This document shows positions 2 to 17,689 of a DNA stretch of 23,647 nt, one piece after another. Position numbers and translations under genes: made by a program. The notes under the pieces were generated by a model. The model ran no database searches. It was not told the DNA's origin and worked only from the letters and a program-made list of their open reading frames with translations. Each line of letters starts with the position of its first letter. The stretch's first letter is position 1. The DNA lies in the IMG/VR virus record IMGVR_UViG_3300035698_009183, positions 1-23,647 of that record, one strand, 5' to 3'. The stretch comes from a virus.

Positions 2-379
2 AACTCATGTGTCGAAATTACTACATATTCTCCGCACTTAGCTAACCAGCTTTTGTTGATGTGTTTCAGGTGTGGGATATTAGCAAGATCCAACAAACAA
101 CCTATTAGTTCGTCGCCTAAGACATTCAAAACAGATAATGAATTTAGATACATAGTCAATATTTCATCTTCTGATTTGCCTAAGATTGCAGAATATGTAC
201 CTGGCAAACTTTCAGAAATTAACGTAAAAAAACGTAATGATAATAGAAGATTTTTCTGGAAAAACTTTGTAGTAGCTCCCGTAGTTTCTAATGAATCATA
301 TAATTACGATGGATATGTATATGATGTCAGGGTACCTGGAACATACACAGTCACTGCTAATGGAATAGCTACTCATCAA
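2..379 (+). other. Intein 1 in portal (C-terminal part only)
   Basis: The C-terminal 126 residues of an intein whose start is left of the window. The first visible residues (TTYSPHLANQLLLMCFRCGIL) resemble the tail of a LAGLIDADG (DOD) homing endonuclease domain. Block F is VYDVRVPGTYTVTANG, and block G is NGIATHQ followed by Ser at 380, where portal sequence begins (SRFYYENESK). The last intein residue is Gln, not the usual Asn; Gln-ending inteins are known but uncommon. The +1 Ser would make the C-extein nucleophile an oxygen. Confidence 0.85.
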
Positions 380-3300
380 TCTAGATTCTACTACGAAAAC
401 GAAAGTAAAGTTGCTGCTGGCGTAGACTTTTATGTAAACTTCCCACTTAATGGATTTAAACTAGAATGCAAAAGTAAAAAGATTGTTCAATACTATGAAC
501 AACTTTCAAAGAAACTAAAACTAAATCATTGGCTAAGATTAATAGCCCATGAGTATTTCCTTCTTGGAGATGTATTTCCATTCTTAGAAATAGATTGTCC
601 AGAATGTCACGGAAGAGGATATCTAAAAAATGGTAATCCATGTAACCATCCAGGCGGATCAATCAAGAGAATCATTATTCTTAACCCAGACTGGATTGAT
701 GTTCAGTCAAACGTACTGGCAACAGAACCTGTCATATCTCTAGTTCCAGATGACGAAATAAGAATGATAGTACAGAGAAAACAACCGAAAGAAATCTATG
801 ATAAGTTAGACCCTGAAACTGTAAGACGTATTGCCTCTGGTATACCAATTCCTCTATCAAATAGATGTGTAAGTCATATTAAACATAATGCTAGTCCTTA
901 TGGAGTATACGGATCGTCGCTACTAAGACGTATGTTTACTATATTGGCTTACAAAACAAAGCTTATGACAGCTAACTGGATTGTAGCCGAAAGATTAATT
1001 CTTCCTGTCAGAGTCGTTAAGATTGGAGACAAAGAAAGACCAGCAAGTCCTAATGACATAAGCGATGTTGCTAATCAATTGTCTGCTGTTGCCAATGATC
1101 CTAACTTGACACTTGTTACTCATCATGCATTTGACTATGAGTGGATAGGGGCTTGTAACTCTAGTGATACCAAGGCTTTATGTAAATCTGGAGGATGGAA
1201 GAATTACTGGGATATCGATCCAGATGATGAAATTATGATTTTCGATCCAAAAACAAATGAGATGAGATACGAAGAACCACTTGCCTTACATGAATACGAT
1301 TACGATGACTGGATGGTTGAATTCAGTGGTAACAAGATGGATATGCTTGTTACGCCAAATCATAAGATGCTTGGCTATAAGAGAAATAAGAAAACAGCTT
1401 ATACAATGGAAGCCAGAGATTTTGCAAAAATAGCTGGTCATGGTGATTCGTATGTACGTTGTGTTGCAAATTATGTTACAGAAGAGGCTCCAGACGCAAT
1501 AGATGTATGCGGATATCAAGTCCCAGTAGATACCTTTATGAAGTATGTAGGATACTATTTGTCTGAGGGATATTCTATATTTAACGAGTCAAAGAGAGCA
1601 TATAGAGTTTCCATATCCCAGTCTCCTACGGTCAATGCATCTGTATGTGAAGAAATCGATGAATTAATGCCAGATCTTGGTATAGAGTATTCAAAGTACG
1701 AATATGAAGGCAGAGTGACTACGTGGGACATTCTAAAGAAAACCATTGCCAAGCAGATTTCTGATTGGTTTGGACATAATTCTAATGACAAGAAAATTCC
1801 TTCCTTTATAAAGAATATGCCAGTTGATAAGTTGAAAATTCTTATAGATGCCTATTGCCAAGGTGATGCCAGTTTTTACGAATACCAATCATCTTATGCA
1901 GTACAATGTGGAACAAACAGCAAACAACTTGCTGATGACTTGTCAGAAATTTTATTCAAATCTGGATATGCTCCCATTATAAGCCAGTACCGCAAGGGCA
2001 AACAATACATGATTTACTGTAATCTATCTGATAACGGGCAAGGACGTATGCCTCGTATATCTGAAAAGCATGTAAAAGCTACATTATACAAAGGAAAAGT
2101 TTGGTGCTATTCAACATCAACAGGCTTCTTTGTTACTCAAAGAAATGGGAAAATTGCTATACAGGGAAATACTGGTAAGATACATAATATTACAGGTGAA
2201 CTTGAAGAAATTGGTAAGGAAATCCTTGACGGATTCATGCTTAACCAGGCATTATTGAATGGTGAAGCGGCAGCATATTCTAGTGCCCAAGTTGGTGTAG
2301 AAGTTATGATAAGGAGACTTGAAAGTTGGAGATCTCAGTTATCTGAGTGGGTAGAAACAAATATATTCTTACCTGTTGCCATGATGCAAGGATTCATTGA
2401 TGAAGAGAAGTCCAAAGAATTAGAAGAGAAGATGTACTTATATCCAACAATAAAATGGAATGATCTACAACTTAGAGATACGTCTAATCTAAAACAGATG
2501 CTTATGCAATTACATGATAAGCAACTTATTTCATCTCAGACATTGCTTGAAACATTTGATATTGATTATGATCAGGAAATACAGCGAATCCGTGATGAGC
2601 AAATTGTCGTAGGACAACAAGGGCAAATGATGGGTGGTCAGGGTGGAATGGGTGGAATGGGTGGAATGCCTGGTGGTGGAGGTATGCCAATGCCAATGCC
2701 TGGAGGCGGAATGCCAGGTATGGAAGGTGGCATGGAAGGTGGCATGGGGACACCTGGAGGAGATATGGGGATGGGAACACCTGGTGGAGCACCGGCAGGA
2801 GGAATGCCTATGGGAGCTGCGGCAGGAGCACCTCCGGCTGGCTTCAAGGTCGAGAAACGAGGCAAAGGTTCAAAGCCTGAAGATCTTATGCAAACTCCGC
2901 AACCCACATTACTCAAGCTTACTAATTTAGAACAGAAAATGTACAAACTTCTTATGAATCTAAATCTTCCATATAAGACTTTCGCACAATATAAAGTAGC
3001 AGTAGCTGGACAGCAGCAACCATTTGTTATAGACTTTGCTATGCCTGATTTGGGTATTGGTTTTGAATGCTTACATCCTGATACATTAGTACTGACTAAC
3101 AATGGATCAAAAAAAGCGAACGATGTGTCCGGAGACGATATGCTTGTTGGACAAAACGGAGATTATGTAAATATTGTAAAAAAATATATTAATCCGAATA
3201 AAAATAATATGGTATCTATAAAAGCACACGGGTTAACTGAAATATATTTGACAGATAATCATCCAGTACTTGTAAGCAAGTCTAAGAGAACAAGAGTCAA

Positions 3301-4507
3301 AAGACACGAACCAAAAATAACAAGAACACGATCATATATTGTTCCGGATAAACCACGTTTTATTGATGTAAAAGATATTTCTAAAGGAGATTTTTTACTT
3401 GTTCCTAAAAAAATTAAATCAACTACAATAAACCATATTGACTTAAGTAAATATAATAATAGGGAATTGGCTCATAACTCAAAAATTATTCCTGATAGAC
3501 TTAATCTAAACAAAGAAACAGGATGGTTAATGGGCATATATTTAGCAGAAGGAAATAGTTGCTGTGGCAATATTACATTTAGTTTACACAAAGATGAAAA
3601 AAAATATGCAGATAAAATATTGTTATATATGGATAAATATTTTGGGCTAAAAGGGAAAATTTACTATTCTATAAAAAATAATGGTATGAGAGTTTGTTTT
3701 TGTTGTCGATCCTTAGCAATTTTCTTTAAAAACAATTTCAACGAATATTCTTATACCAAATCACTTGCAGAATGGGTATTTACCGCAAATAATGATTTTA
3801 TGGAATCATTTTTAAATGGACATTGTGATGGAGATGGTTGTAGAGATAAAAAAAGACAAAGACATATTACAAGTTCTCCATACTTAGCAAATGATATCCA
3901 GAGATTATACTTTTCACTTAATAAAGTAGCTGTTGTTAATGTAACAAAAAGAGGTGGCAAAATACATGATTTTGGTAAAAATAGAAAATATGAAGTAAAA
4001 GATCTATACGAAGTTTCATATACAAAAAATAAATCGAAATTACAATACAGAGAAGATGATAAGTATTTTTATCTTCCAGTGAAAAATATTAAAAAAGTAA
4101 AATATAATGGAGATTTTACCGTAAACTTCGAGACAAGAGGTAAAGATGGAAGCAGTCATACTTTTGTTGTCCATAATGTAATTACGCACAATTGCGACGG
4201 GAAACAGTGGCATGAACAGGCAGAGAACCAAGTAAGAGATGGACAAAGAGATAGAAAATTAGCTGGAATAGGATGGAGAATTCTCAGGTTCAAAGAAAAA
4301 GCCCTTGATGAACAGATGGATGTGATACAAAAAGTTATCATAGAAAATATAAAGGCTGCTGCTAAATCTAGAAAACATGGTAAAACAGATAAAGAATTTA
4401 TAAAAACTTCAAGTGTAATTGAAGGAAAGTCTCCAGAAAATATTGTATACATAAAAGAGAATCTAGAACAAAATGTTGGTGATATGTTTATTATAGGAAC
4501 AGTATAA
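2..4507 (+). CDS. Portal protein with C-terminal PD-(D/E)xK nuclease domain, three inteins, 5' partial
   Basis: The reading frame is open from the left edge, so the start lies outside the window. After removal of inteins (2-379, 1154-2170, 3068-4192) the visible exteins total 661 residues. The first two (380-1153, 2171-2611) read as a phage portal: a fplnGf segment, HEYFLLGDVFPFLEI, a CPEC...C DnaJ-like cysteine cluster near 600-650, then GKIHNITGELEEIGKEILDGF and a helical C-terminal stretch. Portals form the dodecameric DNA entry ring at one capsid vertex. A Gly/Met/Pro linker (2612-2842) leads to about 190 residues resembling DUF559/Vsr-like nucleases: LEQKMYKLL, VIDFAMPDLGIGFE, then CDGKQWHE, RDGQRDRKLAGIGWRILRF. 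The D, E and DGK positions suit a PD-(D/E)xK active site. The portal call is firm. Nuclease activity is inferred. Upstream starts inside the first intein (e.g. position 53) are not real starts. Confidence 0.88.
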   Translation, partial: NSCVEITTYSPHLANQLLLMCFRCGILARSNKQPISSSPKTFKTDNEFRYIVNISSSDLPKIAEYVPGKLSEINVKKRNDNRRFFWKNFVVAPVVSNESYNYDGYVYDVRVPGTYTVTANGIATHQSRFYYENESKVAAGVDFYVNFPLNGFKLECKSKKIVQYYEQLSKKLKLNHWLRLIAHEYFLLGDVFPFLEIDCPECHGRGYLKNGNPCNHPGGSIKRIIILNPDWIDVQSNVLATEPVISLVPDDEIRMIVQRKQPKEIYDKLDPETVRRIASGIPIPLSNRCVSHIKHNASPYGVYGSSLLRRMFTILAYKTKLMTANWIVAERLILPVRVVKIGDKERPASPNDISDVANQLSAVANDPNLTLVTHHAFDYEWIGACNSSDTKALCKSGGWKNYWDIDPDDEIMIFDPKTNEMRYEEPLALHEYDYDDWMVEFSGNKMDMLVTPNHKMLGYKRNKKTAYTMEARDFAKIAGHGDSYVRCVANYVTEEAPDAIDVCGYQVPVDTFMKYVGYYLSEGYSIFNESKRAYRVSISQSPTVNASVCEEIDELMPDLGIEYSKYEYEGRVTTWDILKKTIAKQISDWFGHNSNDKKIPSFIKNMPVDKLKILIDAYCQGDASFYEYQSSYAVQCGTNSKQLADDLSEILFKSGYAPIISQYRKGKQYMIYCNLSDNGQGRMPRISEKHVKATLYKGKVWCYSTSTGFFVTQRNGKIAIQGNTGKIHNITGELEEIGKEILDGFMLNQALLNGEAAAYSSAQVGVEVMIRRLESWRSQLSEWVETNIFLPVAMMQGFIDEEKSKELEEKMYLYPTIKWNDLQLRDTSNLKQMLMQLHDKQLISSQTLLETFDIDYDQEIQRIRDEQIVVGQQGQMMGGQGGMGGMGGMPGGGGMPMPMPGGGMPGMEGGMEGGMGTPGGDMGMGTPGGAPAGGMPMGAAAGAPPAGFKVEKRGKGSKPEDLMQTPQPTLLKLTNLEQKMYKLLMNLNLPYKTFAQYKVAVAGQQQPFVIDFAMPDLGIGFECLHPDTLVLTNNGSKKANDVSGDDMLVGQNGDYVNIVKKYINPNKNNMVSIKAHGLTEIYLTDNHPVLVSKSKRTRVKRHEPKITRTRSYIVPDKPRFIDVKDISKGDFLLVPKKIKSTTINHIDLSKYNNRELAHNSKIIPDRLNLNKETGWLMGIYLAEGNSCCGNITFSLHKDEKKYADKILLYMDKYFGLKGKIYYSIKNNGMRVCFCCRSLAIFFKNNFNEYSYTKSLAEWVFTANNDFMESFLNGHCDGDGCRDKKRQRHITSSPYLANDIQRLYFSLNKVAVVNVTKRGGKIHDFGKNRKYEVKDLYEVSYTKNKSKLQYREDDKYFYLPVKNIKKVKYNGDFTVNFETRGKDGSSHTFVVHNVITHNCDGKQWHEQAENQVRDGQRDRKLAGIGWRILRFKEKALDEQMDVIQKVIIENIKAAAKSRKHGKTDKEFIKTSSVIEGKSPENIVYIKENLEQNVGDMFIIGTV
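1154..2170 (+). other. Intein 2 in portal (339 aa, with LAGLIDADG endonuclease)
   Basis: Begins at Cys after WIGA: CNSSDTKALCKSGGWKNYW is a block A variant common in phage inteins (C..DT..L...GWK). Block B is LVTPNHKML (TxxH). The homing endonuclease motifs are VGYYLSEGYS and LIDAYCQGDAS; both acidic residues remain, although the second has Ala in place of the last Gly. The end is VWCYSTSTGFFVTQRNGK...IQGN followed by Thr. The penultimate residue is Gly rather than His. Removing it joins WIGA to TGKIHNITGELEE, restoring a continuous portal sequence. Confidence 0.9.
2612..2842 (+). repeat. Gly/Met/Pro-rich low-complexity linker in portal
   Basis: About 77 codons of Gly, Met and Pro with near-tandem 9-base units (GGTGGAATG) at the start. 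It separates the portal body from the nuclease-like C-terminal domain and is probably a flexible tether. Antisense open frames across this stretch are by-products of the repeat. Confidence 0.85.
3068..4192 (+). other. Intein 3 in portal nuclease domain (375 aa, with LAGLIDADG endonuclease)
   Basis: Starts at Cys (CLHPDTLVLTNNGSKKANDV, block A) and ends HNVITHN followed by Cys at 4193. Block B is IYLTDNHPVLV (TxxH). The endonuclease motifs are LMGIYLAEGNS and LNGHCDGDGCR, both with intact acids. Splice junctions are classical (Cys1, His-Asn end, Cys+1). Base composition is visibly more AT-rich than the flanking exteins, a sign of recent arrival. Excision joins GIGFE to CDGKQWHE and so rebuilds the predicted nuclease active site. 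Confidence 0.93.
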
Positions 4508-4509
4508 GG

Positions 4510-4947
4510 ATGCCTAAATTCAATCTTTCAATATATAAAGAAGCTGGAACAAGAAGAATAAGAGATAGGGGAATACGCTGGGAAGAAACGTATCATGAAA
4601 GATCTAAACCTTTAAAAAAGAAGTTTGATAAGATTCTAGGTCCAGGTTCATATTATCGTTGGGAAGGACATGATTATACTACAGACTCTGATTATTTTGT
4701 AGTTGTTGGTCCTGCTATTCAGAGAAGCGGAGAAAAGTCTTTTTTCTCTGGCGTAAAAAAATTACCACCTAGATATAAAAGAGCAAAAGTTAAAACATAT
4801 GCTCCAAGTGGTGAATATTTTACAAATATCTTTTCTGCCTTAAGCCATGCTTCTAAAATGTGGGGGATTTCTTTTCCTCCTCATCAGCAAAAGTATGACA
4901 ACAATGATCTTGCTCCTATAGATATACCAAGACATGTAAAAGGATAA
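4510..4947 (+). CDS. Small hypothetical phage protein (145 aa)
   Basis: It starts two bases after the portal stop, so the two genes are probably co-transcribed and perhaps translationally coupled; an AGGA lies about 12 bases upstream of the ATG, inside the portal end. The protein is basic and rich in aromatic residues, with no membrane segment or signal peptide. The N-terminus MPKFNLSIYKEAG places Tyr at position 9, as in five other small proteins of this window. The rest (RWEETYHERS, SYYRWEGHDYTTDSDYFVV, PPRYKRAKV) matches no family I recognise. Position between portal and protease suggests a virion or head-assembly component, but that is inference only. Confidence 0.75.
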   Translation: MPKFNLSIYKEAGTRRIRDRGIRWEETYHERSKPLKKKFDKILGPGSYYRWEGHDYTTDSDYFVVVGPAIQRSGEKSFFSGVKKLPPRYKRAKVKTYAPSGEYFTNIFSALSHASKMWGISFPPHQQKYDNNDLAPIDIPRHVKG

Positions 4948-5684: not shown

Positions 5685-8600
5685 ATGGCACTACATAAAA
5701 AAGCGAATACTCACAATAATACGATTATGCTTCCGTTAAATAAGCCTGATTGGCCGGAATACCAACTTAAATATGCTTCTATAGATAAAATGCAAGAACC
5801 AGACTTAGGTGGATTTGATTTAGAAGCTGAGATAGAAAAACATCCAGATAATCTATTCATCAAAATTCTTGCTATTGTAAAAGATGAGGTGAATGATAAC
5901 GGAGATGCTTTCTCAGAAACAGAGCTTATTAAAGCTACTGATTCTTTTGTAGGCGTTCCTGTCTTCTGTAATCATCAAAACGATGATATAGAAAAAGCAA
6001 GGGGAATCGTAATACATTCATGGTATGACAAACAAGCTGGTGGAATCTATATTATATCAAGAGTAGACAGAATTGCTTACCCTCAACTAGCACGTTCAAT
6101 AGAAGAGGGTATTGTTCTAGGTTCTTCAATGGGATGCTTTCGTGGGAACATGAGAGTATTGATGTCAGATGGTTCGTATAGACCAATAAAAGAAATTAAA
6201 AAAAATGATAAGGTAATAACTCATAAAGGTAACATTAAAAAGGTAAAAAACGTTCAGATTCATACTGATAAGACAAACACAGATATTTACAAAATTAAAG
6301 TAGAAGGATTGCCAAACGAGATACATGTAACTGGTGAACATCCATTTTACTTGCTGAAAAAACAAGATCATTGTTTTATCACTGGAGAACATATAGGTAC
6401 ACGAAAAGGAAGAAGAGAAGATAACAATAATAGTCAAAACTATAGAAGAAGGGTAAAAAGAGGAGTTTACCAAAAAGAAGAATATAAGACTGCTCTTAAA
6501 GATGGATTATTGGATCTTCATGATTTTGGATGGGAAAAAACAAAAAACTTATCTGTTGGAGATATGGTTACGTTTCCAATATCTAATATGGAAATTGATA
6601 GCGAAGACGCAACTATTGAGAAGGCAAGATTAATCGGCTATTTCTTAGCCGAAGGAAGCTATCTTAAATACAAAGGAAGACGTACTGCCGTTGAATTTAA
6701 TATTAATTTAACCGAAGAAAAAGACACTCTAGGAAGAGAAATTATTAGTCTTTTACGTTATGTTTTTAAAGGATATAGGAACGAACCGTGGATACAAGAA
6801 AGACCAAAAAGAAATACTTACATGGTAAGACTTTATGGTACTGAAGTAGTAGAGTGGTTTTATAAATATTGTAATGAATATTCTCATAAAAAATATATGC
6901 CAGAAGAATGTTTATTCTGGCCTAAAGAAATACAAAAACATATTTTAGGGGCATGGATTAACGGAGATGGAACAAGAAGAAGAGTTTATCATCCTAGATC
7001 TGGCAAAAAACAAGAAAATATAACTTCAACAACTACGTCTGAACAACTACACTATCAGATGAAATTCATAACATCTAGGTTAGGAATATATTCGACAACC
7101 GATCAAGTCACAGAAAGAGCAATAAAAAGAAATAGAAAACCTTATTATACTCTTGTTTTTGGATCAAGAGAATCTGTAAAACTTAATGACGTTTTATCTG
7201 ATTCTAGAAAAGTTTCAGAAAACAATATAAAATCACAATTTCGATGTGCTGATAACTACATGGTTATGCCAATTAAAAATATCAGTACTGAATACAATGA
7301 TCAACAAGTATTTAATATAGAAGTAGAAGATGACCATTCTTATATAGTAGAAGGTGTTGCCGTGAAAAATTGCTCGGTAACCGCATCTATTTGTTCTATC
7401 TGTCATAATTGTGCTTCAGTTGCAGATGAATATTGTTCGTGTATTAAAGAAAGAAAGAACAAAAAAGTTAGTAGTAAAGTAAAATGTGAATACCACAACA
7501 GTCCTATTAAATTAGAAGGATATGAAGATGTATGTCCAATTTGCGGAGCTACGGAAAGAGAATCTAAAAAGAACGAATACAAAAATGCTCAGATTTTTGA
7601 GCATAACTTTGGCATCAAGTTCATCGAAGATTCATTTGTCGTAAATCCTGCATGTCATAATTGTCTTGTTCAAGAAATCTTTAATAAAACAGAATTCGAA
7701 AAGAAAGTTGCATCTCTTAAAGAGAAGGTACAAGGACTTGCAAAAGTCGCATGTTCTTCTGGAACATGTAACTTAGATCCTATTATTATTAAAGCTGCTG
7801 GGAAACAAGAGTTGGACGAACTTGGACAAGTTATGGAAATACTTGAAAAAGTTGCTAAATCAATGATGTCCCAGAAAGAATATGTTTCTATGCAATATGT
7901 CAGTGATGTTGTCGAAACGATGGCAAGCATACAGTCATATTTTGATGAACTTACAGAAATGGGTTATGGACAGATACCATCTCCTATGATAACAGGAGAA
8001 GAAAACATAGAGTTGCCGAAGTCTTCAGATGACATTGCAGAGCAATCACAACAACAACAACAACAACAACAACCATTGCCAAGTCCTCCTCAACTTCAGC
8101 CTACATCACAAGGTGGATTTGAGACACAGGACGTTGGATCGGGTATAGGGACAGTTACTAAACCTAAATTGTCAGAAAAAAAGAAGGATTTTATTCAAAA
8201 ATCTTCTAATTTAATTAAGAAACTATCGGAGCTAAACGAGAGATTGAATTCTCAGGAAATTACTACTCAAATTGGAAAAGACTATAAGGAGTCACAAATG
8301 GCAGACAAGAATAAAACTGGGCAAGAAAGCACAGATCTAAATAAGGTCGCTTCTGAACACAGTACTGATGTTATTACAGAAAAGCAACTACCTGAGGATC
8401 AAGGTGGTGGAGCAAGAACTGAGGAAATACGACCTGTTATCTTAGAAAAACAGCTTAACAATCCTAGTGAATACAAAAAGGATGGTTTAGTTGGCTCTCT
8501 TGAAGGTCCGATGGATAGATGGGGAACTTACGAAGTAATAACAGAAAAACAAATGTCTAGCGTTAATAAAGAATGTGTTGCCAGATGGGTAGACTATCCT

Positions 8601-11600
8601 GAAGTCATTACTGAAAAGCAATGGAGTGAGGTTTCTCGCCTTATTGGTTCTGAACTTAGTAAAGATCAGGACAGCATCATAACAGAAAAACAGATGGGAG
8701 ATTTCCTATCTAAGCATAGATATATGGATTACGACGTTATTACCGAAAAACAATTGCCACAACAAGATGGAGATCTATCTCGCTGGGCATACACGTTTGA
8801 CGGTAAGAGACTAGTTAAAGCAGCTATGGACGCTATCGCGGATACCATTGCTAACTACAACAAGACGCCTGCTGAAATAGCTAAGGCTGCTTCTTTTCTT
8901 AACGACAGTCCAAGAAACCTTGACAAAGCCTCAATGCTCGTACTAGTAAACGCAATGCCTACTAAGAAAGACATTAGACAGGCATCAAGAAGTAAGTACA
9001 CTTACTTCTCCAAGTTGGCTAACCAAGCTGTTGAGACACCAACTGCTATTGATTCACTTATACTTAGTGTTAGCGATAACTTGTCAGACTTGAGTGCAGA
9101 TGATGTTTTGCAGGCTGTTAAGCATGTTGTGTCTAGTGAAAAGGGCATGAAACAGGCAGAGTCGATTGCTAAGAATAAGCTCGGTTCAAATACTGGTACT
9201 GAGAAAATTACTGATAAAACTTCTGCATTCGATCAAGCTATCGTAGAACTTGATAGACCAGAAGATGGTATATACCAAGTCCGTGCTGGCGTATCAGAAA
9301 TTGGAGCAGATCCTACAGACAAAAAGGCATTCTTGCAAGCAACTGAAAAGTTCGCAAACGATGCCATCGGTGATTCTGGCATTAAGGTAGCCATTACTAA
9401 AGTTGATCTTGACGAAGAGTCTGGCATACTTATTGCTACTGCAAAAGACGTTAATTCAATGAATGATACAGAAAAAGAAGCTTATGCTCAATTTATAGAT
9501 GCTCCAATTAAGCCAAGAAACCTGTCGAGATCTAAGAGAGACGCTCGCAGAGAAATGAGAAACGAAGGCGACGAGATTATGCCTGACGATATTGGTGGAG
9601 ATGAAAGTCTAATAGACGAATTATTCCCAGAAGACGAAATTAGGAATCGTAAAGTTCCTATTAAGGGAAAATCGAGACCTGGACGCTTTGCATCCAACAG
9701 AGTTAAGACCGTAAAACAAGCTCAGATGCTTGGTGGTGAAATGGGTGGACAAGGTGGAGCGGCTCAGGCACCTGGTGCTGGAGCAACATTACCATCTGCA
9801 CCTCCAGAAGAAGCTCCTCTTGAGAGTTTCGAATCTACTGATCTTGGAGATGATCTTGGAGTGGAAGAAGAAGATTTTCAACCTAAGCCTCCTGGATCTG
9901 TTTGTCCAGTTTGTACTAGTCAAGATGTTGATATAATCAAAGGCGAAGGCAAATGTAATAACTGTGGTTCAGAATTTAATTACAAAATTGCTCTTGAAGT
10001 TACCATATGGGCTGACTTCATGGATAACTCTGTAGATGATGGTGACAGCGAAGAAGATGAACTTGGATTGGAAGGTGAAGGATTTGAGTTACCAGAAGCT
10101 GAGGCTCCTGCACCAGAAGCTGTAGCACCAGAAGCTGTAGCACCAGAAGCTACTGGAGTTCCTGCTGCTGCAAGCGTAGACAACAATAGTGTAGAGAAAT
10201 ATGCTTTTGCTTCTATGACCAAGATTACACCTGAAAGAATAAAAATTGCTGCCGACGCTAGCGTTAAATTGGGTAGCGTTAGCCCAATGACTGGTACAAC
10301 GCAGACAATTGATTTAGGAAACGGTGAACATATTTGTTTGGATACTGGTACAAAGTACAAAGTATCGTTCGTTGTTGATTCTAAGAATCCTAAGAATATA
10401 TATGCACAATGGTCATGGACTCCAGATGATGCTATTCTCGATTGCAAGAATTGCTCAAAGACTAAGACAGACTTTACTAAAGCTCTTACTTCATATGGCA
10501 AGACAGAAAAAGAGTTTGATGCCATGTCAATGAAAGAAAAAGGTATTGTTATTGTCGCAATGAAAAAAACTAATCTTCTTAAGACAGTCAAAACAGCAAG
10601 TAAAGATACTTCTGTTATAGAACGTATGCAAAAGGTTGCTGCTCAATTCCCAAATTTCCCAGAGGAAATTTGCAGAGAAAAGATCTATCGCAGATTCGGT
10701 GCCGATGCTGTAGCGTTGAGCGGTCCATACGAAGGCGAGAATCTAGCAGAAGCGATCATCAAGACTCTTAAGAAAGCAAATGTATATTCCAACAACCTCG
10801 CAGTCAAGGTCGCAGCAATTTGGTGTGACAAGGATGGCGCTGACGAATGTCTAGAAGACAGAGTTAGAGAAGGTTTTGATATTAAACAAGCATCACTTGT
10901 TTGTAATACGATGAAAGCTAAGTATGCTCAGTTTGATGACATCGTTGCTGACGATTTGGCTGATGACTTCGGACCAGAGGAAGAAGAGAACTTTGAAGAA
11001 CAAGAAGGTGGAGACTTCGAGGAAGACTTCGATCCATTTGAAGATGAAGAAAGCGAAGACTTTGACGAAGTTGATGAAGGGTTTGAAGGAATGGAAGGAA
11101 TGGAAGAAATGGGAGAAGAGACAGTAACTATTGAATTACCAGCAGAAGTTGCAGAAGCAGTTCAAGAAGCAGTTGATGTATCACTAGGTGCTGGTGAAAC
11201 TGAGATAGATGTAGAAATTGGTGGACCAGAAGAAGGCAATATCGACATAATTGAAGAAGGCGATGAAGGTGATATTGAAGGTGATATTGAAGGTGATATT
11301 GAAGGTGAAGATGACTTTATTGAAGAGTCTACAGACGGAGAGATAGAAGACGTTGTCGATGATGAAGTTGAGAAAGACATGCAAGGACCGTTAGGCGCAG
11401 ACAATATGGGAGACGGTCCCATGGTCAGCGACAACGTCGGTATGGAAGACAGCATGGATGTGAAAAACTTTGAGAATAAAGGAGGAGTTGATCCTCAAGT
11501 AGAAGAACAAGAACAACAAGGTCGTAGTTTTAAAGAAAGCGATCCAGAAGAATACGCACATGCATCTACAGATGACAACGTAATAAGAGAATCAGAATCA

Positions 11601-12698
11601 ATGAAACACGGACACATAAATAAAACGAACGAAATCAACCTTGACTTGTCTATGGTACAAGCTGTTTTGGATAAGCAGGCTACTGACATTGGATTGCAGA
11701 GTGCTCAAGATACTGCAACAGATTATAGCGGTTCTTCGACAATCGGTGATGAAGATAGTTTCACCGCCGACAAACCATCTGCTCCAAGCGGTAAGGCAAC
11801 AATGGGCGACGAATCACCAGATCTTCAGAAACAAGATAAGGCGTCGGCTCCAACATCAGATGCTAGGATGGGAGACGAAGGCGACGATCTAAAACCTGAA
11901 TTGGACGACAAAGCAACTGGTGGCGAAGAAGGTGCTGGTAACTCAAAAGCAGCTTCTACGAGAGATAGAACAAATTCACTCGCTGATGGTATTATAAAGA
12001 ACCTAAAAGAAGCAGAAGAAAAAGTAGTTAGAAAACAAGTTCAGGATGATGAAGATACTAAGCCTTATAGTGGTGATAGCTTCATGGGTAACGAAAAAGA
12101 ATCCATTGGAGATATCCCAGAAGCAAAAACGACTCCAGACGGAACCCCAGAGGATCAACAGTTCTTAGGTAATGAAAAAGAATCTATTGGCGACAAGCCT
12201 GATTCAGTTAAAGATACACCAGACATTCCTACCAGCGACGACAGAATTGGTGGGGAAACTGATAATGATAAGATAGCCCCTGAAAAAGAAAACGAAATGA
12301 CAGGGAATATAGAAGGTGGAACATTCGGTAGTTCCGAAAATGGGTCCAAAGTTCACAAGGAAGCTTTCCGCATAGCTGGACGAATGCTACAAAAGAATAT
12401 GATTGAAGCAAATGGTCTAGAAACTAAAGTGAAAGAACTTTCTAAATACGAACTTAATCAGTTGAGCGACATCGAAAGAGGAATGTTCAACACTAAAGGA
12501 CTCGACGCTCCATCAGGCGGCTCAGAGCAAGCCGTGATCGTAAGTGAAGCGAGTACTGAAAAAAATACCATTGAGAGACATGCCAGTCAAGAAGATAACT
12601 TGGTTGAAACGCTTCAGGGTATGTTCAGCTTACAAAAACGAGTCGATGCTGCTCAGACTGACGATATGACAGAATTAAGAAAAATATACGGTAGATAA
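5685..12698 (+). CDS. Prohead maturation protease fused to a giant scaffold (2337 aa, one intein)
   Basis: Residues 1-150 plus those after the intein (151-562) match head-maturation serine proteases: GVPVFCNHQND (predicted catalytic His97), GIYIISRVDRIAYPQLARSIEEG, and GSSMG (predicted Ser148) rejoined to CSVTASICSICHN. Cysteine clusters follow (YCSCIK, CPICG, CHNC), then coiled coil, a Q8 tract, six VI[T/L]EKQ repeats (residues 896-1023), a zinc ribbon (CPVC...CNNC, 1407-1427), very acidic low-complexity blocks, six [I/M/L]G[D/N/G]E repeats and a helical C-terminus ending LRKIYGR. The spliced product is about 1925 residues, far longer than usual protease-scaffold fusions. Expected role: internal scaffold that is digested during capsid maturation. 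Start chosen at ATG with AGGTAAC upstream. Protease assignment is good; functions of the middle are inferred. Confidence 0.82.
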   Translation: MALHKKANTHNNTIMLPLNKPDWPEYQLKYASIDKMQEPDLGGFDLEAEIEKHPDNLFIKILAIVKDEVNDNGDAFSETELIKATDSFVGVPVFCNHQNDDIEKARGIVIHSWYDKQAGGIYIISRVDRIAYPQLARSIEEGIVLGSSMGCFRGNMRVLMSDGSYRPIKEIKKNDKVITHKGNIKKVKNVQIHTDKTNTDIYKIKVEGLPNEIHVTGEHPFYLLKKQDHCFITGEHIGTRKGRREDNNNSQNYRRRVKRGVYQKEEYKTALKDGLLDLHDFGWEKTKNLSVGDMVTFPISNMEIDSEDATIEKARLIGYFLAEGSYLKYKGRRTAVEFNINLTEEKDTLGREIISLLRYVFKGYRNEPWIQERPKRNTYMVRLYGTEVVEWFYKYCNEYSHKKYMPEECLFWPKEIQKHILGAWINGDGTRRRVYHPRSGKKQENITSTTTSEQLHYQMKFITSRLGIYSTTDQVTERAIKRNRKPYYTLVFGSRESVKLNDVLSDSRKVSENNIKSQFRCADNYMVMPIKNISTEYNDQQVFNIEVEDDHSYIVEGVAVKNCSVTASICSICHNCASVADEYCSCIKERKNKKVSSKVKCEYHNSPIKLEGYEDVCPICGATERESKKNEYKNAQIFEHNFGIKFIEDSFVVNPACHNCLVQEIFNKTEFEKKVASLKEKVQGLAKVACSSGTCNLDPIIIKAAGKQELDELGQVMEILEKVAKSMMSQKEYVSMQYVSDVVETMASIQSYFDELTEMGYGQIPSPMITGEENIELPKSSDDIAEQSQQQQQQQQPLPSPPQLQPTSQGGFETQDVGSGIGTVTKPKLSEKKKDFIQKSSNLIKKLSELNERLNSQEITTQIGKDYKESQMADKNKTGQESTDLNKVASEHSTDVITEKQLPEDQGGGARTEEIRPVILEKQLNNPSEYKKDGLVGSLEGPMDRWGTYEVITEKQMSSVNKECVARWVDYPEVITEKQWSEVSRLIGSELSKDQDSIITEKQMGDFLSKHRYMDYDVITEKQLPQQDGDLSRWAYTFDGKRLVKAAMDAIADTIANYNKTPAEIAKAASFLNDSPRNLDKASMLVLVNAMPTKKDIRQASRSKYTYFSKLANQAVETPTAIDSLILSVSDNLSDLSADDVLQAVKHVVSSEKGMKQAESIAKNKLGSNTGTEKITDKTSAFDQAIVELDRPEDGIYQVRAGVSEIGADPTDKKAFLQATEKFANDAIGDSGIKVAITKVDLDEESGILIATAKDVNSMNDTEKEAYAQFIDAPIKPRNLSRSKRDARREMRNEGDEIMPDDIGGDESLIDELFPEDEIRNRKVPIKGKSRPGRFASNRVKTVKQAQMLGGEMGGQGGAAQAPGAGATLPSAPPEEAPLESFESTDLGDDLGVEEEDFQPKPPGSVCPVCTSQDVDIIKGEGKCNNCGSEFNYKIALEVTIWADFMDNSVDDGDSEEDELGLEGEGFELPEAEAPAPEAVAPEAVAPEATGVPAAASVDNNSVEKYAFASMTKITPERIKIAADASVKLGSVSPMTGTTQTIDLGNGEHICLDTGTKYKVSFVVDSKNPKNIYAQWSWTPDDAILDCKNCSKTKTDFTKALTSYGKTEKEFDAMSMKEKGIVIVAMKKTNLLKTVKTASKDTSVIERMQKVAAQFPNFPEEICREKIYRRFGADAVALSGPYEGENLAEAIIKTLKKANVYSNNLAVKVAAIWCDKDGADECLEDRVREGFDIKQASLVCNTMKAKYAQFDDIVADDLADDFGPEEEENFEEQEGGDFEEDFDPFEDEESEDFDEVDEGFEGMEGMEEMGEETVTIELPAEVAEAVQEAVDVSLGAGETEIDVEIGGPEEGNIDIIEEGDEGDIEGDIEGDIEGEDDFIEESTDGEIEDVVDDEVEKDMQGPLGADNMGDGPMVSDNVGMEDSMDVKNFENKGGVDPQVEEQEQQGRSFKESDPEEYAHASTDDNVIRESESMKHGHINKTNEINLDLSMVQAVLDKQATDIGLQSAQDTATDYSGSSTIGDEDSFTADKPSAPSGKATMGDESPDLQKQDKASAPTSDARMGDEGDDLKPELDDKATGGEEGAGNSKAASTRDRTNSLADGIIKNLKEAEEKVVRKQVQDDEDTKPYSGDSFMGNEKESIGDIPEAKTTPDGTPEDQQFLGNEKESIGDKPDSVKDTPDIPTSDDRIGGETDNDKIAPEKENEMTGNIEGGTFGSSENGSKVHKEAFRIAGRMLQKNMIEANGLETKVKELSKYELNQLSDIERGMFNTKGLDAPSGGSEQAVIVSEASTEKNTIERHASQEDNLVETLQGMFSLQKRVDAAQTDDMTELRKIYGR
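6135..7370 (+). other. Intein 4 in prohead protease (412 aa, with LAGLIDADG endonuclease)
   Basis: Starts at Cys (CFRGNMRVLMSDGSYRPIKE, block A) directly after SSMG, and ends VEGVAVKN followed by Cys at 7371. Block B is IHVTGEHPFYLL. Endonuclease motifs are LIGYFLAEGSY and ILGAWINGDGTR, acids intact. Block F is VFNIEVEDDHSYIVEG. The penultimate residue is Lys instead of His, a deviation at a residue that normally assists Asn cyclisation. The coding is more AT-rich than the flanking extein. Confidence 0.92.
8049..8072 (+). repeat. (CAA)8 trinucleotide repeat coding polyglutamine
   Basis: Eight uninterrupted CAA codons inside the scaffold gene, followed by a Pro-rich stretch (PLPSPPQLQPTSQ). 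A pure codon run can change length by slippage without loss of frame. It probably forms a flexible linker between the protease part and the repeat-bearing scaffold part. Confidence 0.9.
8370..8753 (+). repeat. Six VI[T/L]EKQ protein repeats in scaffold
   Basis: Copies begin at 8370, 8436, 8535, 8604, 8676 and 8736: VITEKQ, VILEKQ, VITEKQ, VITEKQ, IITEKQ, VITEKQ. Spacing is 20-33 residues. The codons differ between copies (Ile as ATT, ATC, ATA; Thr as ACA, ACT, ACC; Lys as AAA, AAG), so the amino-acid motif is kept by selection rather than by recent duplication. The hydrophobic-x-Glu core resembles the (I/L)xE sites cut by T4-type prohead proteases. Confidence 0.88.
10110..10154 (+). repeat. 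15-base tandem repeat (APEAV) in scaffold
   Basis: Two full copies of GCACCAGAAGCTGTA and a third diverging in its last codon, coding APEAVAPEAVAPEAT. A partial related unit lies just upstream (10091). It is an Ala/Pro/Glu linker after an acidic block. Confidence 0.85.
11265..11308 (+). repeat. 12-base tandem repeat (EGDI) in acidic scaffold region
   Basis: Three perfect copies of GAAGGTGATATT plus a partial fourth, coding EGDIEGDIEGDIEG. Perfect copies imply recent expansion. The surrounding 10930-11400 is one of the most acidic parts of the scaffold. Confidence 0.9.
11739..12260 (+). repeat. Six degenerate [I/M/L]G[D/N/G]E repeats in scaffold C-terminal region
   Basis: Copies begin at 11739 (TIGDE), 11799 (TMGDE), 11865 (RMGDE), 12081 (FMGNEKESIGD), 12162 (FLGNEKESIGD) and 12243 (RIGGE). 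Spacing within each group is 20-27 residues. Each copy is followed by Asp/Lys/Pro-rich sequence. Function unknown; a regular short binding motif in disordered scaffold is plausible. Confidence 0.75.
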
Positions 12699-14569: not shown

Positions 14570-14614
14570 ATGTCGATATATAATAGTAGACCTAAATTAA
14601 AGGAACAGAAATAA
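14570..14614 (+). CDS. Possible 14-residue leader peptide
   Basis: ATG at 14570 is preceded by AAAGGAGATAAGG and encodes MSIYNSRPKLKEQK. Its TAA stop overlaps the next ATG as TAATG, the layout of translational coupling. The downstream endonuclease ATG has only AAAGGAAC some 13 bases away for its own ribosome site. It could be a coupling leader that keeps endonuclease output low, or the remnant of a gene broken by the endonuclease insertion. Too short to judge by sequence alone. Confidence 0.4.
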   Translation: MSIYNSRPKLKEQK

Positions 14615-15606
14615 TGAGAGAGCAACCACACTACACAGATTTGCTTACTAAGAAATTTTTTATAGAGCATTACATAGAGAAAAGAATGTCTTATCCCAAA
14701 ATACGAGAGATGCTATTGAAACAAGGATATAATATTCATGTTGGAACACTATATAATTACGCCAAGAGACTTGGTATAGGAAGAACAAGGTCAGAAGCAA
14801 AAATCAATAGATCTAAGAACCCACTAGATTGGACAAAAAACTATATGACAGACGATATATTAGAATGTATAGATGGATTTTTACTTGGTGATGGATGTAT
14901 ACAACTTGAGTACAGAAGTAAAAAAAACGTAGGAAGATTATCTTGTGGACTACAATATGAAGAATTTTGTAAGTATTTAATTGGTCATTTTCCAGAATAT
15001 ATGTCTACTAGCTCAAAATATGATAGAGAATCCATGAGCCTTGGATATATATGGGAGGGAAGAACTAGATTCCATCCTGATCTATATATTCAACGACAAA
15101 GATGGTATATTAAAGACGAAAAAGATAACAAAACAAAAAAACAGCCACCCAGAGACATTAGAATAACACCTAAATCAGTTATGATGTGGTATCTTGGAGA
15201 CGGGTCTCTTGTTAAGACTAAAAAAAACGCTATTACTCTAAGACTGTCTACAGACGGATTCGATAAAGAAAAGAACATATTCTTAGTTGAAAAATTGCAA
15301 GAAAAAAGAATAGATTGTTATGTGAATGGAGACAATAGGATACAGATCAGGACTGCTGCTGTTCCTGCTTTCTTTGATTTCATTGGTAGGAAGTCTCCTG
15401 TAAAGTGTTATGATTATAAGTTTGACTTACCAGAATGGAGATTTGAATCAAAAAGAATGAGCGTTGTTGCAAGTGAGTTAGGAATCGACTATAATAGACT
15501 ATCTTACTGGGTTAAATCTGGGAAAGTTCCTTGTTACAGGATTACTCCGAAGGGTAGACCTAGATTCTTGCCAGAGCACATAGAGAAGATAAAGGAAGTA
15601 ATTTAA
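14614..15606 (+). CDS. Free-standing LAGLIDADG homing endonuclease (330 aa)
   Basis: Two endonuclease motifs are visible, IDGFLLGDGCI near residue 90 and MMWYLGDGSLV near residue 190, each with the catalytic Asp. The N-terminus (FIEHYIEKRMSYPKIREMLLKQGYNIHVGTLYNYAKRLGI) is a helix-turn-helix of the kind that adds DNA contacts. A second helix-turn-helix lies at the C-terminus (MSVVASELGIDYNRLSYWVKSGKVP, then TPKGRPRFLPEHIEKIKEVI), resembling a MerR/excisionase-type reader. No intein splicing blocks flank it, so it is free-standing and would spread by cutting an allele lacking the insertion. It is followed two bases later by a second, unrelated homing endonuclease. Confidence 0.88.
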   Translation: MREQPHYTDLLTKKFFIEHYIEKRMSYPKIREMLLKQGYNIHVGTLYNYAKRLGIGRTRSEAKINRSKNPLDWTKNYMTDDILECIDGFLLGDGCIQLEYRSKKNVGRLSCGLQYEEFCKYLIGHFPEYMSTSSKYDRESMSLGYIWEGRTRFHPDLYIQRQRWYIKDEKDNKTKKQPPRDIRITPKSVMMWYLGDGSLVKTKKNAITLRLSTDGFDKEKNIFLVEKLQEKRIDCYVNGDNRIQIRTAAVPAFFDFIGRKSPVKCYDYKFDLPEWRFESKRMSVVASELGIDYNRLSYWVKSGKVPCYRITPKGRPRFLPEHIEKIKEVI

Positions 15607-15608
15607 AA

Positions 15609-16904
15609 ATGCAAAGAAAAATACATAATTTTAAATCTGAGATATTAATAGACAAGACAATAGATGAATTTGGATATCATCCTGACAAATACGGACCCAA
15701 ATCTGCCAAATTTGTTATAGCTAGGTGTCGTTATTGTGGCAAAGATCACAAGATTAGAAAGGGATTTTTTAATAAATCTGGATCAGCATGTCATAAAGCT
15801 TGTAAGCTTGAGGAGCAGAGACAACAGGTATCTCCTTTTAAGGATAAGAAGGTTAGGGAGAAGTCTAGGAAGACTAATTTGGAGAGATATGGTGTTGAGC
15901 ATGCTAGTCAGAATAAAAAGATATCTAGTAAAATTTCTGAATCTAAGAGGGCACGATCTTATAGACATATGGTTGATACATTATCTAAGGATGGTATCGA
16001 TTTATGTAAGGATTATGATGTTTTATCTTCTTCTAAGAACTGGGACCAACAGAGGGATGACATAGTTAGTAGTCTTAGGGAATTTTGTTCTAGCGAAATT
16101 TTACTTAACGTTTCAAAAGTGATACAATCTCATAGATTAGATATATACATTCCTGAGATGAAATTTGCTATTGATCTTATTGGTAGTTTTTGGCATTCAG
16201 ATGTTGTTTTGGAAGCTAAAGATGCCAGAAAAAAACATAGGATAAAGTTAGACTTATGTAGAGAGAAGGGGATAAGGTTATTTCACATTTTTGAGCATCA
16301 CTGGGACACAAGAAAAGATCAGATACTCAATTTTATAAAATCGATATTGAGCAAGAATGCGATTAAGGTTGCTGGTAGAAAGTGTATAGTAACCAATGAT
16401 GGATGTAAAGAGTTTATAAATAGGAATCACATACAGGGATATGGTTATGGAACTATTAAGTATTTTAATTTAGTTTATGATGGTAATATAGTTGCTAGTA
16501 TGACAGCATCTAAGCATCACAGGCAGAATGTAGTTGGTAATCCTGTTGTGTTGAATAGATTATGTTTTGCTAGTGGTTACAATGTACAGGGTGGTTCTAG
16601 CAAATTGTTTAAAAGATTTGTAGAATGGTCTAAAGATGAGGGATATGACAGAATATTAAGTTGGAGTGACAATTCATGGACTGAGGGTAGGATATATGAG
16701 GTATTGGGGTTTAATTTGGATAGAGAGTATGATCCTGATTACTTTTATTGGGACATAAAAAATAGGAAGTATTTTTCTAAGCAATCTCAAAAGAAGTCAA
16801 ATAGTGGATGTCCTAAAGAGATAACAGAAAGAGAGTGGAGTGCTGGTAAGGGTCTTTTCAGAATCTGGGACTGCGGAAAGAGGCTCTGGTCATACAATTT
16901 ATAG
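15609..16904 (+). CDS. Vsr-like homing endonuclease with C-terminal GNAT-like domain (431 aa)
   Basis: ATG follows AGGAAG by about 10 bases. An N-terminal cysteine motif (CRYCGKDH...CHKAC) and a NLERYGVEHASQNKKI segment typical of phage homing endonucleases lead to a Vsr-like nuclease core near residues 180-245: LDIYIPEMKFAIDLIGSFWH, then KLDLCREKGIRLFHIFEHHW. The C-terminal 130 residues (FINRNHIQGYGYG, LNRLCFASGYNVQGGSSKLFKRF, SDNSWTEGRIYEVLGF) match a conserved, GNAT-like module often found after this nuclease. Codon use is distinct from the neighbours (many AGG, GGT, TTG), a sign of separate origin. It is the only gene on this stretch ending in TAG besides the InPase-like gene. Confidence 0.82.
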   Translation: MQRKIHNFKSEILIDKTIDEFGYHPDKYGPKSAKFVIARCRYCGKDHKIRKGFFNKSGSACHKACKLEEQRQQVSPFKDKKVREKSRKTNLERYGVEHASQNKKISSKISESKRARSYRHMVDTLSKDGIDLCKDYDVLSSSKNWDQQRDDIVSSLREFCSSEILLNVSKVIQSHRLDIYIPEMKFAIDLIGSFWHSDVVLEAKDARKKHRIKLDLCREKGIRLFHIFEHHWDTRKDQILNFIKSILSKNAIKVAGRKCIVTNDGCKEFINRNHIQGYGYGTIKYFNLVYDGNIVASMTASKHHRQNVVGNPVVLNRLCFASGYNVQGGSSKLFKRFVEWSKDEGYDRILSWSDNSWTEGRIYEVLGFNLDREYDPDYFYWDIKNRKYFSKQSQKKSNSGCPKEITEREWSAGKGLFRIWDCGKRLWSYNL

Positions 16905-16940: not shown

Positions 16941-17210
16941 AATTGGTACATGAATAAAACAAGCCAAGATAAACCTGACATGAGTGGTAGAATATCTGAT
17001 TTATGTAATGAGATCGACCAGTATCCTCTTATATTACGTGTCGCCGTAAAATTATATTTAGAAGGAGTAAGAGAACTAGATATACATAAGATCCTCGCAG
17101 GAGCAGGAGGAGATCCTACCACAAACAATATTTATAATATCATCAGAGATATAGATAGTGGATTCACTCCAATCACTTCTAAACTTAAGGAGATGTCAGA
17201 AAGATCATGA
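16938..17210 (+). CDS. Small hypothetical protein (90 aa)
   Basis: Unrecognised. The body (ISDLCNEIDQYPLILRVAVKLYLEGVRELDIHKILAGAGGDPTTNNIYNIIRDI) is helical, with a possible helix-turn-helix in the second half, so DNA binding is conceivable. The start is uncertain: the ATG at 16938 (MNWYMNK) touches the TATAAG box and lacks a ribosome site, while 16950 (MNKTSQ) and 16980 (MSGRIS) are in frame. If the TATA box is a promoter, transcription would begin at or after 16938. Its TGA stop overlaps the next ATG as ATGA, so the two genes are coupled. Confidence 0.65.
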   Translation: MNWYMNKTSQDKPDMSGRISDLCNEIDQYPLILRVAVKLYLEGVRELDIHKILAGAGGDPTTNNIYNIIRDIDSGFTPITSKLKEMSERS

Positions 17211-17689
17211 AAATCATAGAAACGAACTTATACAAAACAGCCATAGACGAAAATTTAGGATACGAAAGAGACTTCAATGACATAAAGGTAAAAATTGAGA
17301 ACGCTGCTGGCACAGTTCGTTATGGTATAGATCCAGATGGTAACGAATGGAGAACAGAATTTCAATATGATTATGGATTCGTAACAAGATTAGCAGGCGA
17401 TGATGGAGATGGACTAGATGTATATCTAGGTCCGGACGAAGAAGCAGAAAACGTATATTCCGTAACTCAAGTAGATAAAGAAACAGGCGAATTCGACGAG
17501 TTGAAAGTGATGTTAGGATTTGGGTCAGAAAAGGAAGCAAAAGAAGCATATCTAAAACATTATGATTCTCCTGATTTCTTTGGTGGAATAACAAAAATAT
17601 CAATGGATGACTTCAAAAAAGCCATAGAAGGAAAGGGAGAGAAAGTCCCTCTAACATGGAAAAAAAAAGATAAAGAAGAAGACGACTAG
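17207..17689 (+). CDS. InPase-like domain protein (160 aa)
   Basis: ATG follows AAGGAG by about 15 bases and overlaps the previous stop (ATGA). Residues 20-150 match the phage/mobile-element domain labelled inorganic pyrophosphatase-like: WRTEFQYDYGFVTRLAGDDGDGLDVYLGPD, VYSVTQVDKETGEFDELKVMLGF, then AYLKHY and GITKISMDDFKKAIEG. The clustered Asp (DDGDGLDVYLG) could bind metal ions, but catalytic activity has not been established from this sequence. The N-terminal MKIIETNLYKTA is one of several copies of a shared tag, suggesting that the domain is delivered to a common place such as the capsid. A terminator follows. Confidence 0.75.
   Translation: MKIIETNLYKTAIDENLGYERDFNDIKVKIENAAGTVRYGIDPDGNEWRTEFQYDYGFVTRLAGDDGDGLDVYLGPDEEAENVYSVTQVDKETGEFDELKVMLGFGSEKEAKEAYLKHYDSPDFFGGITKISMDDFKKAIEGKGEKVPLTWKKKDKEEDD

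Follow-up and report, generated by a model that had tools for sequence, protein, structure and literature searches.

The window, that is, the whole stretch of DNA analysed here, comprised 23,647 bases of the virus record IMGVR_UViG_3300035698_009183. An open reading frame at positions 2-4507, the 5' end of which lies beyond the window, was found to comprise a portal extein, three inteins, a linker, and a nuclease domain (Table 1). Relatives without intein 1 continued directly into RFYY. The N-terminal part of the nuclease domain ended in ...VIDFAMPDLGIGFE at position 3067, and the C-terminal part began with CDGKQWHEQAENQVRDGQRDRKLAGIGWRILRF at position 4193. A 145-aa protein was encoded directly 3' of this gene (4510-4947) and was also found close by in most related loci. 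It had no match in Pfam or PHROG, and is a possible partner of the portal-nuclease protein.

Table 1. Features of the portal-nuclease gene in the window.
Feature	Coordinates	Strand	Basis
Portal-nuclease gene (three inteins included)	2..4504	+	Open frame; phrog_16240; phage G gp14 homology
Intein 1, C-terminal end (last residues ATHQ, then SRFYYEN)	2..379	+	Sequence
Intein 2, 339 aa (CNSSDT...IQGN), within the portal	1154..2170	+	Extein match breaks; intein motifs
Flexible linker, Gly/Pro/Met-rich	2612..2917	+	Sequence
Nuclease domain, N-terminal part (helix Glu, DFA Asp, predicted catalytic Glu at its end)	2918..3067	+	Joined-domain DUF559/MTES_1575 matches; conservation in relatives
Intein 3, 375 aa, between the predicted catalytic Glu and Cys	3068..4192	+	Splice motifs; homologous inteins at this site in four relatives
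Nuclease domain, C-terminal part (CDGKQWH...RDGQRDRKLAGIGWRILRF)	4193..4372	+	Joined-domain Pfam matches; conservation
C-terminal tail, LGxxxLIG-like end partly conserved	4373..4504	+	Alignment of homologues

Sequence comparison identified the product of the open reading frame as a predicted portal subunit of a tailed phage. Its portal part matched phrog_16240 (E 1.7e-36), a family that was also matched by all seven full-length relatives, and showed 31% identity to the portal gp14 of Bacillus phage G. A structural model of the full-length portal was of low confidence (pLDDT 48) and served for fold recognition only; in that search, solved portals ranked on top (11bp, E 1.1e-4, probability 1.00; T4, 812, and NF5). 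The portal of phage G likewise has a Gly/Pro-rich C-terminal region, but, unlike the portal in the window, it lacks the nuclease domain. No homologue of the domain was found elsewhere in the phage G genome, and the idea that this phage keeps the nuclease as a separate gene was rejected on that ground.

When the two parts of the nuclease domain were read across intein 3 (the joined domain), Pfam cut-offs were passed for MTES_1575 (E 9.4e-10; 38.9 bits, cut-off 38.2) and DUF559 (E 2.7e-9; 37.3 bits, cut-off 20.6). DUF559 was also matched by 40/40 homologues of the domain. A profile built from 40 intein-free homologues matched an endonuclease-like protein (3hrl, E 4e-6) and the mobile-intron nuclease I-Bth0305I (3r3p, E 6e-5) in the PDB. 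The fold was modelled with AlphaFold on a close intein-free relative (L027), standing in for the window domain, with pLDDT above 90 across most of the core. Foldseek comparison of this model with the PDB returned 3r3p, PvuRts1I, 3hrl, and Vsr, all with probability 1.00, and the alpha-beta-beta-beta-alpha-beta core of the PD-(D/E)xK superfamily was present. The first-pass annotation had proposed that a Gly/Met linker connects the portal to a PD-(D/E)xK nuclease of DUF559/Vsr type, and the phrog_16240, Pfam, PDB, and Foldseek matches bore out both halves of this proposal. It had named two observations that would speak against it, namely the absence of a nuclease fold and the loss of the D and E residues in homologues. 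Both were looked for; the L027 model showed the fold, and the two residues were invariant, as detailed below.

All predicted catalytic residues were kept in the window copy, i.e., E of LEQK, D of VIDF, and E of GFE, together with D of CDG, H of QWH, and D of RDGQRD. Among distinct intein-free domains, the helix E was invariant (90/90), as were D of (L/I)DFA, E of ExDG, H of WH, and D of RDxxRD (each 91/91). The D of the ExDG motif was found in 87/91 domains and was replaced by E or C in the other four. The omega value had a median of 0.06 and a maximum of 0.22 over 77 close pairs, which overlap and are thus not independent. The invariance of these residues and the omega values point to strong purifying selection with the active site kept, and a decayed nuclease domain was rejected on the same evidence. 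On sequence and model grounds, the domain appears to be an intact endonuclease and to fall within the DUF559/Vsr/EDxHD branch of the PD-(D/E)xK fold. A possible likeness to the EDxHD type is seen in the fold and profile matches to I-Bth0305I and in the invariant E, D, H, and D. The mobility and sporadic spread typical of an EDxHD homing endonuclease were not seen, since the domain was fixed in 48/48 portals and co-inherited with them.

Portals sense packaged DNA, and a tethered DNA-binding domain would suit this function. The nuclease fold might accordingly be kept at the portal for binding only, retaining the genome end or sensing a full head with no cutting, and the replaced D of the ExDG motif in four of the 91 domains would be in line with this. 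The invariance of the helix E and of the D, E, H, and D residues goes beyond what binding alone requires, and we regard a purely binding role as improbable.

DUF559/MTES_1575 (REase), Vsr, and I-Bth0305I share sequence and predicted fold with the portal nuclease domain, but they are free-standing or form parts of repair, restriction, or homing proteins; no member of these families joined to a portal was found among the matches examined.

To survey other portals for the C-terminal domain, two portal-anchored scans of viral contigs were performed, one of them covering the best 80 of 190 relatives, which yielded 53 distinct portal ORFs. The nuclease was present in all 48 portals with the 3' end inside the stretch. 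Since this architecture recurred in 48/48 complete relatives that were found via the portal, the observation lies well above chance. More distant portals, beyond the best 80 of the 190 relatives, may lack the nuclease. Among named records examined, homologous portals without the domain were those of phage G, LR745208, Rctr197k, and Mycobacterium phage Tonenili. Portal and nuclease identities, compared pair by pair, were correlated (r 0.80), and none of 1,000 permutations gave a value as high. The correlation indicates that the fusion is old and has been inherited as a unit; a recent or local insertion of the nuclease was rejected by its presence in 48/48 portals and by this correlation.

The linkers in 91 relatives were 75-202 aa long (median 114 aa) and rich in G (26%), P (11%), A (10%), and M (9%). 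Several carriers were contigs of 296-548 kb and thus include jumbo phages. The carriers are a widespread group of large, uncultured phages; no relatives were found in the genome_contigs scans. A weak match in Prevotella phage Lak-A1, a recoded phage, proved to be a free-standing homing-type endonuclease rather than a portal, and the one record looked at among the Vibrio phage matches was a P-loop protein.

Two adjoining free-standing homing-type genes were identified further downstream (14614-16904), encoding a LAGLIDADG endonuclease and a Vsr-like protein (phrog_3339/phrog_559). The latter had a GNAT-like C-terminal part. Like the inteins, the portal nuclease could itself be a selfish passenger, in this case a homing-type nuclease of recent capture that plays no part in the virion: a homing nuclease, I-Bth0305I, is one of its closest solved structures, and phrog_559 matched both the nuclease domain and the free-standing homing-type gene at 15609-16904, the match between the two being weak. 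Homing elements are sporadic. The portal domain, by contrast, occurred in 48/48 complete portals and was inherited together with them, and no empty allele, i.e., a portal lacking the domain, was found within the fused clade in the portal-anchored scans. A passenger of this kind is therefore very unlikely, while a homing-type nuclease is plausible as the evolutionary origin of the domain.

Intein 3 (CLHPDT...VITHN) was located, as first noted from the sequence, inside the active-site motif, exactly between the predicted catalytic Glu and CDGK. It contained Cys1, block B TxNH, the terminal His-Asn, Cys+1, and LAGLIDADG-type motifs. Its Pfam scores (Intein_splicing, PF14890, 23.7 bits; LAGLIDADG_3, PF14528, 22.0 bits) were near but, taken alone, below the cut-off. 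Splicing would restore E-CDG, and the unspliced precursor is probably inactive because the insertion breaks the catalytic motif. The E|C site was occupied in five of about 96 distinct domains (the window, L020, L039, L062, and L218). The five inteins belonged to one LAGLIDADG family, with 34-48% identity among themselves and about 20% to the other inteins of the window. In the 91 intein-free domains, the residue after the catalytic E was mostly Ala or Thr, and Cys in three. Portals of the fused clade carried inteins at several sites, and some TerLs were interrupted as well; the TerL genes of the relatives L073, L088, L089, and L090 were split by intein-like insertions, either around the ATPase motif (WGRR) or around the nuclease motif (TDDL|C). 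A 412-aa intein (CFRGNM...VAVKN; 6135-7370) was also found in the protease-like head protein.

The first-pass annotation regarded intein 3 as an unusual safety switch, by which the nuclease would be held off during portal synthesis and activated by regulated splicing. The interruption of the ExDG motif directly after the catalytic Glu is what such a switch would call for, but the nuclease is intact and uninterrupted at that site in the other 91 of the roughly 96 domains, the five inteins form a single homing family, and the same gene has inteins where no nuclease lies. The idea thus did not hold up, and it is the least probable of the explanations considered here. The sequence data fit a homing element in a conserved target better, which would make intein 3 a sporadic passenger and not a maintained switch; given this sporadic distribution, any effect on activity would be incidental. 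Intein 3 would then illustrate how an intein can home into the active site of an enzyme that does not need it for control.

To ask whether the portal nuclease replaces that of the terminase, TerL was examined and was found in 20/20 relatives searched, with the three nuclease motifs intact in all. Pfam Terminase_6C missed all of these TerLs, so that a family search alone would have been misleading. A replacement of the terminase nuclease was therefore rejected, and the portal nuclease appears to add something to the terminase.

In phage T4, the resolvase gp49 is bound to the portal and frees stalled branched DNA (PMC9958956, PMC10893049), and the DNase gp4 is needed for packaging (PMC7824862). 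GFP fused to the C-terminus of the T4 portal was located in the prohead interior (PMC10893049), and prohead function was kept with GFP on up to about half of the portal subunits (PMC9958956). On the strength of gp49 and gp4, we tentatively favor, at a little short of an even chance, a portal-tethered nuclease whose DNA processing is coupled to packaging or head maturation. In the sequences compared, a flexible Gly/Pro/Met-rich arm, about 75-200 residues long, connects the portal and the nuclease. If the portal is dodecameric like its homologues, up to twelve nucleases would stand near the DNA channel, and, by analogy with the T4 C-terminal fusion, these arms would lie inside the head near the inner mouth of the channel. 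There they could nick, trim, or resolve irregular DNA, such as branches, flaps, mismatches, and stray ends, during genome loading. Such an inner position would be better suited to trimming or repairing DNA that has already entered than to debranching on the outside, where branched DNA stalls. Against this reading, a ring of twelve nucleases in active form, turned toward the packaged DNA, would have to be held in check.

As is proposed for the window protein, nucleases of T4 work at the portal or within the head while DNA is packaged, namely gp49 (endonuclease VII), which is bound to gp20, and gp4. The T4 nucleases are separate proteins, however, and the fold of gp49 is a different one, whereas the nuclease in the window is covalently part of every portal subunit. 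RuvC was found in phage G and in 0/12 fused records, most of which were fragments, a pattern that may hint at a resolvase-like role for the portal domain. An endonuclease VII-like gene was present in one fused record, so the fused clade is not wholly without resolvases. A RusA search gave only two matches, both below the cut-off. As a counterpoint to DNA processing at the portal, related portals, including that of phage G, do without the domain.

The chief rival to DNA processing at the portal is release of the nuclease, in which the prohead protease would cut the linker in head maturation and the freed nuclease would either be cleared or stay in the head and be ejected with the genome, to act on the DNA of the host or of rivals at an early stage of infection. 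In SPN3US and related giant phages, the portals have long N-terminal propeptides (161-254 aa), which are lost to the prohead protease (PMC5694885, PMC10052503). SPN3US gp81 thus resembles the window protein in having a large extra region on the portal of a big phage. The flexible linker would be easily cut, and both the window and relatives have, downstream, a protease-like gene that bears a long C-terminal extension. The propeptides of the SPN3US type differ, however, in being N-terminal and in having no nuclease reported in them, the nuclease in the window being C-terminal. Further, a Glu cleavage motif was not conserved among the linkers (ITE-like in 5/91), and a free cargo would not need fusion to the portal. 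We consider release by proteolysis unlikely, and no specific support was obtained for the earlier suggestion that the nuclease acts on host or rival DNA.

The protease-like head protein (5685-12698) carried six (V/I)I(T/L)EKQ(L/M/W) motifs in its long extension (residues about 896-1027), and 4-6 copies were found in 14 related ORFs. The T4 prohead protease cuts Alt at ITE-6 (PMC5694885), which the ITE of these motifs resembles. On this sequence likeness, the repeats may be processing sites, or else scaffold repeats.

No portal joined to DUF559 was found in the published literature covered (full text, titles, and passages, with subscription journals mostly outside this coverage). The portal and the nuclease are of known kinds, and the combination appears to be new. 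Channel and sensor are the roles usually ascribed to portals; a strictly conserved portal-attached nuclease would give packaging or head maturation an additional enzymatic step in a large phage group, and one fused protein would combine functions that are divided in T4 between the portal and separate nucleases. Somewhat more tentatively than the coupling of DNA processing to packaging or maturation, we propose a hitherto undescribed packaging machine, in which each portal subunit would carry an active nuclease arm inside the head, inspecting and cutting the passing DNA independently of the terminase nuclease. Additionally, an inorganic pyrophosphatase-like domain (PF18823, E 2e-39) was encoded near the head genes (17207-17689).
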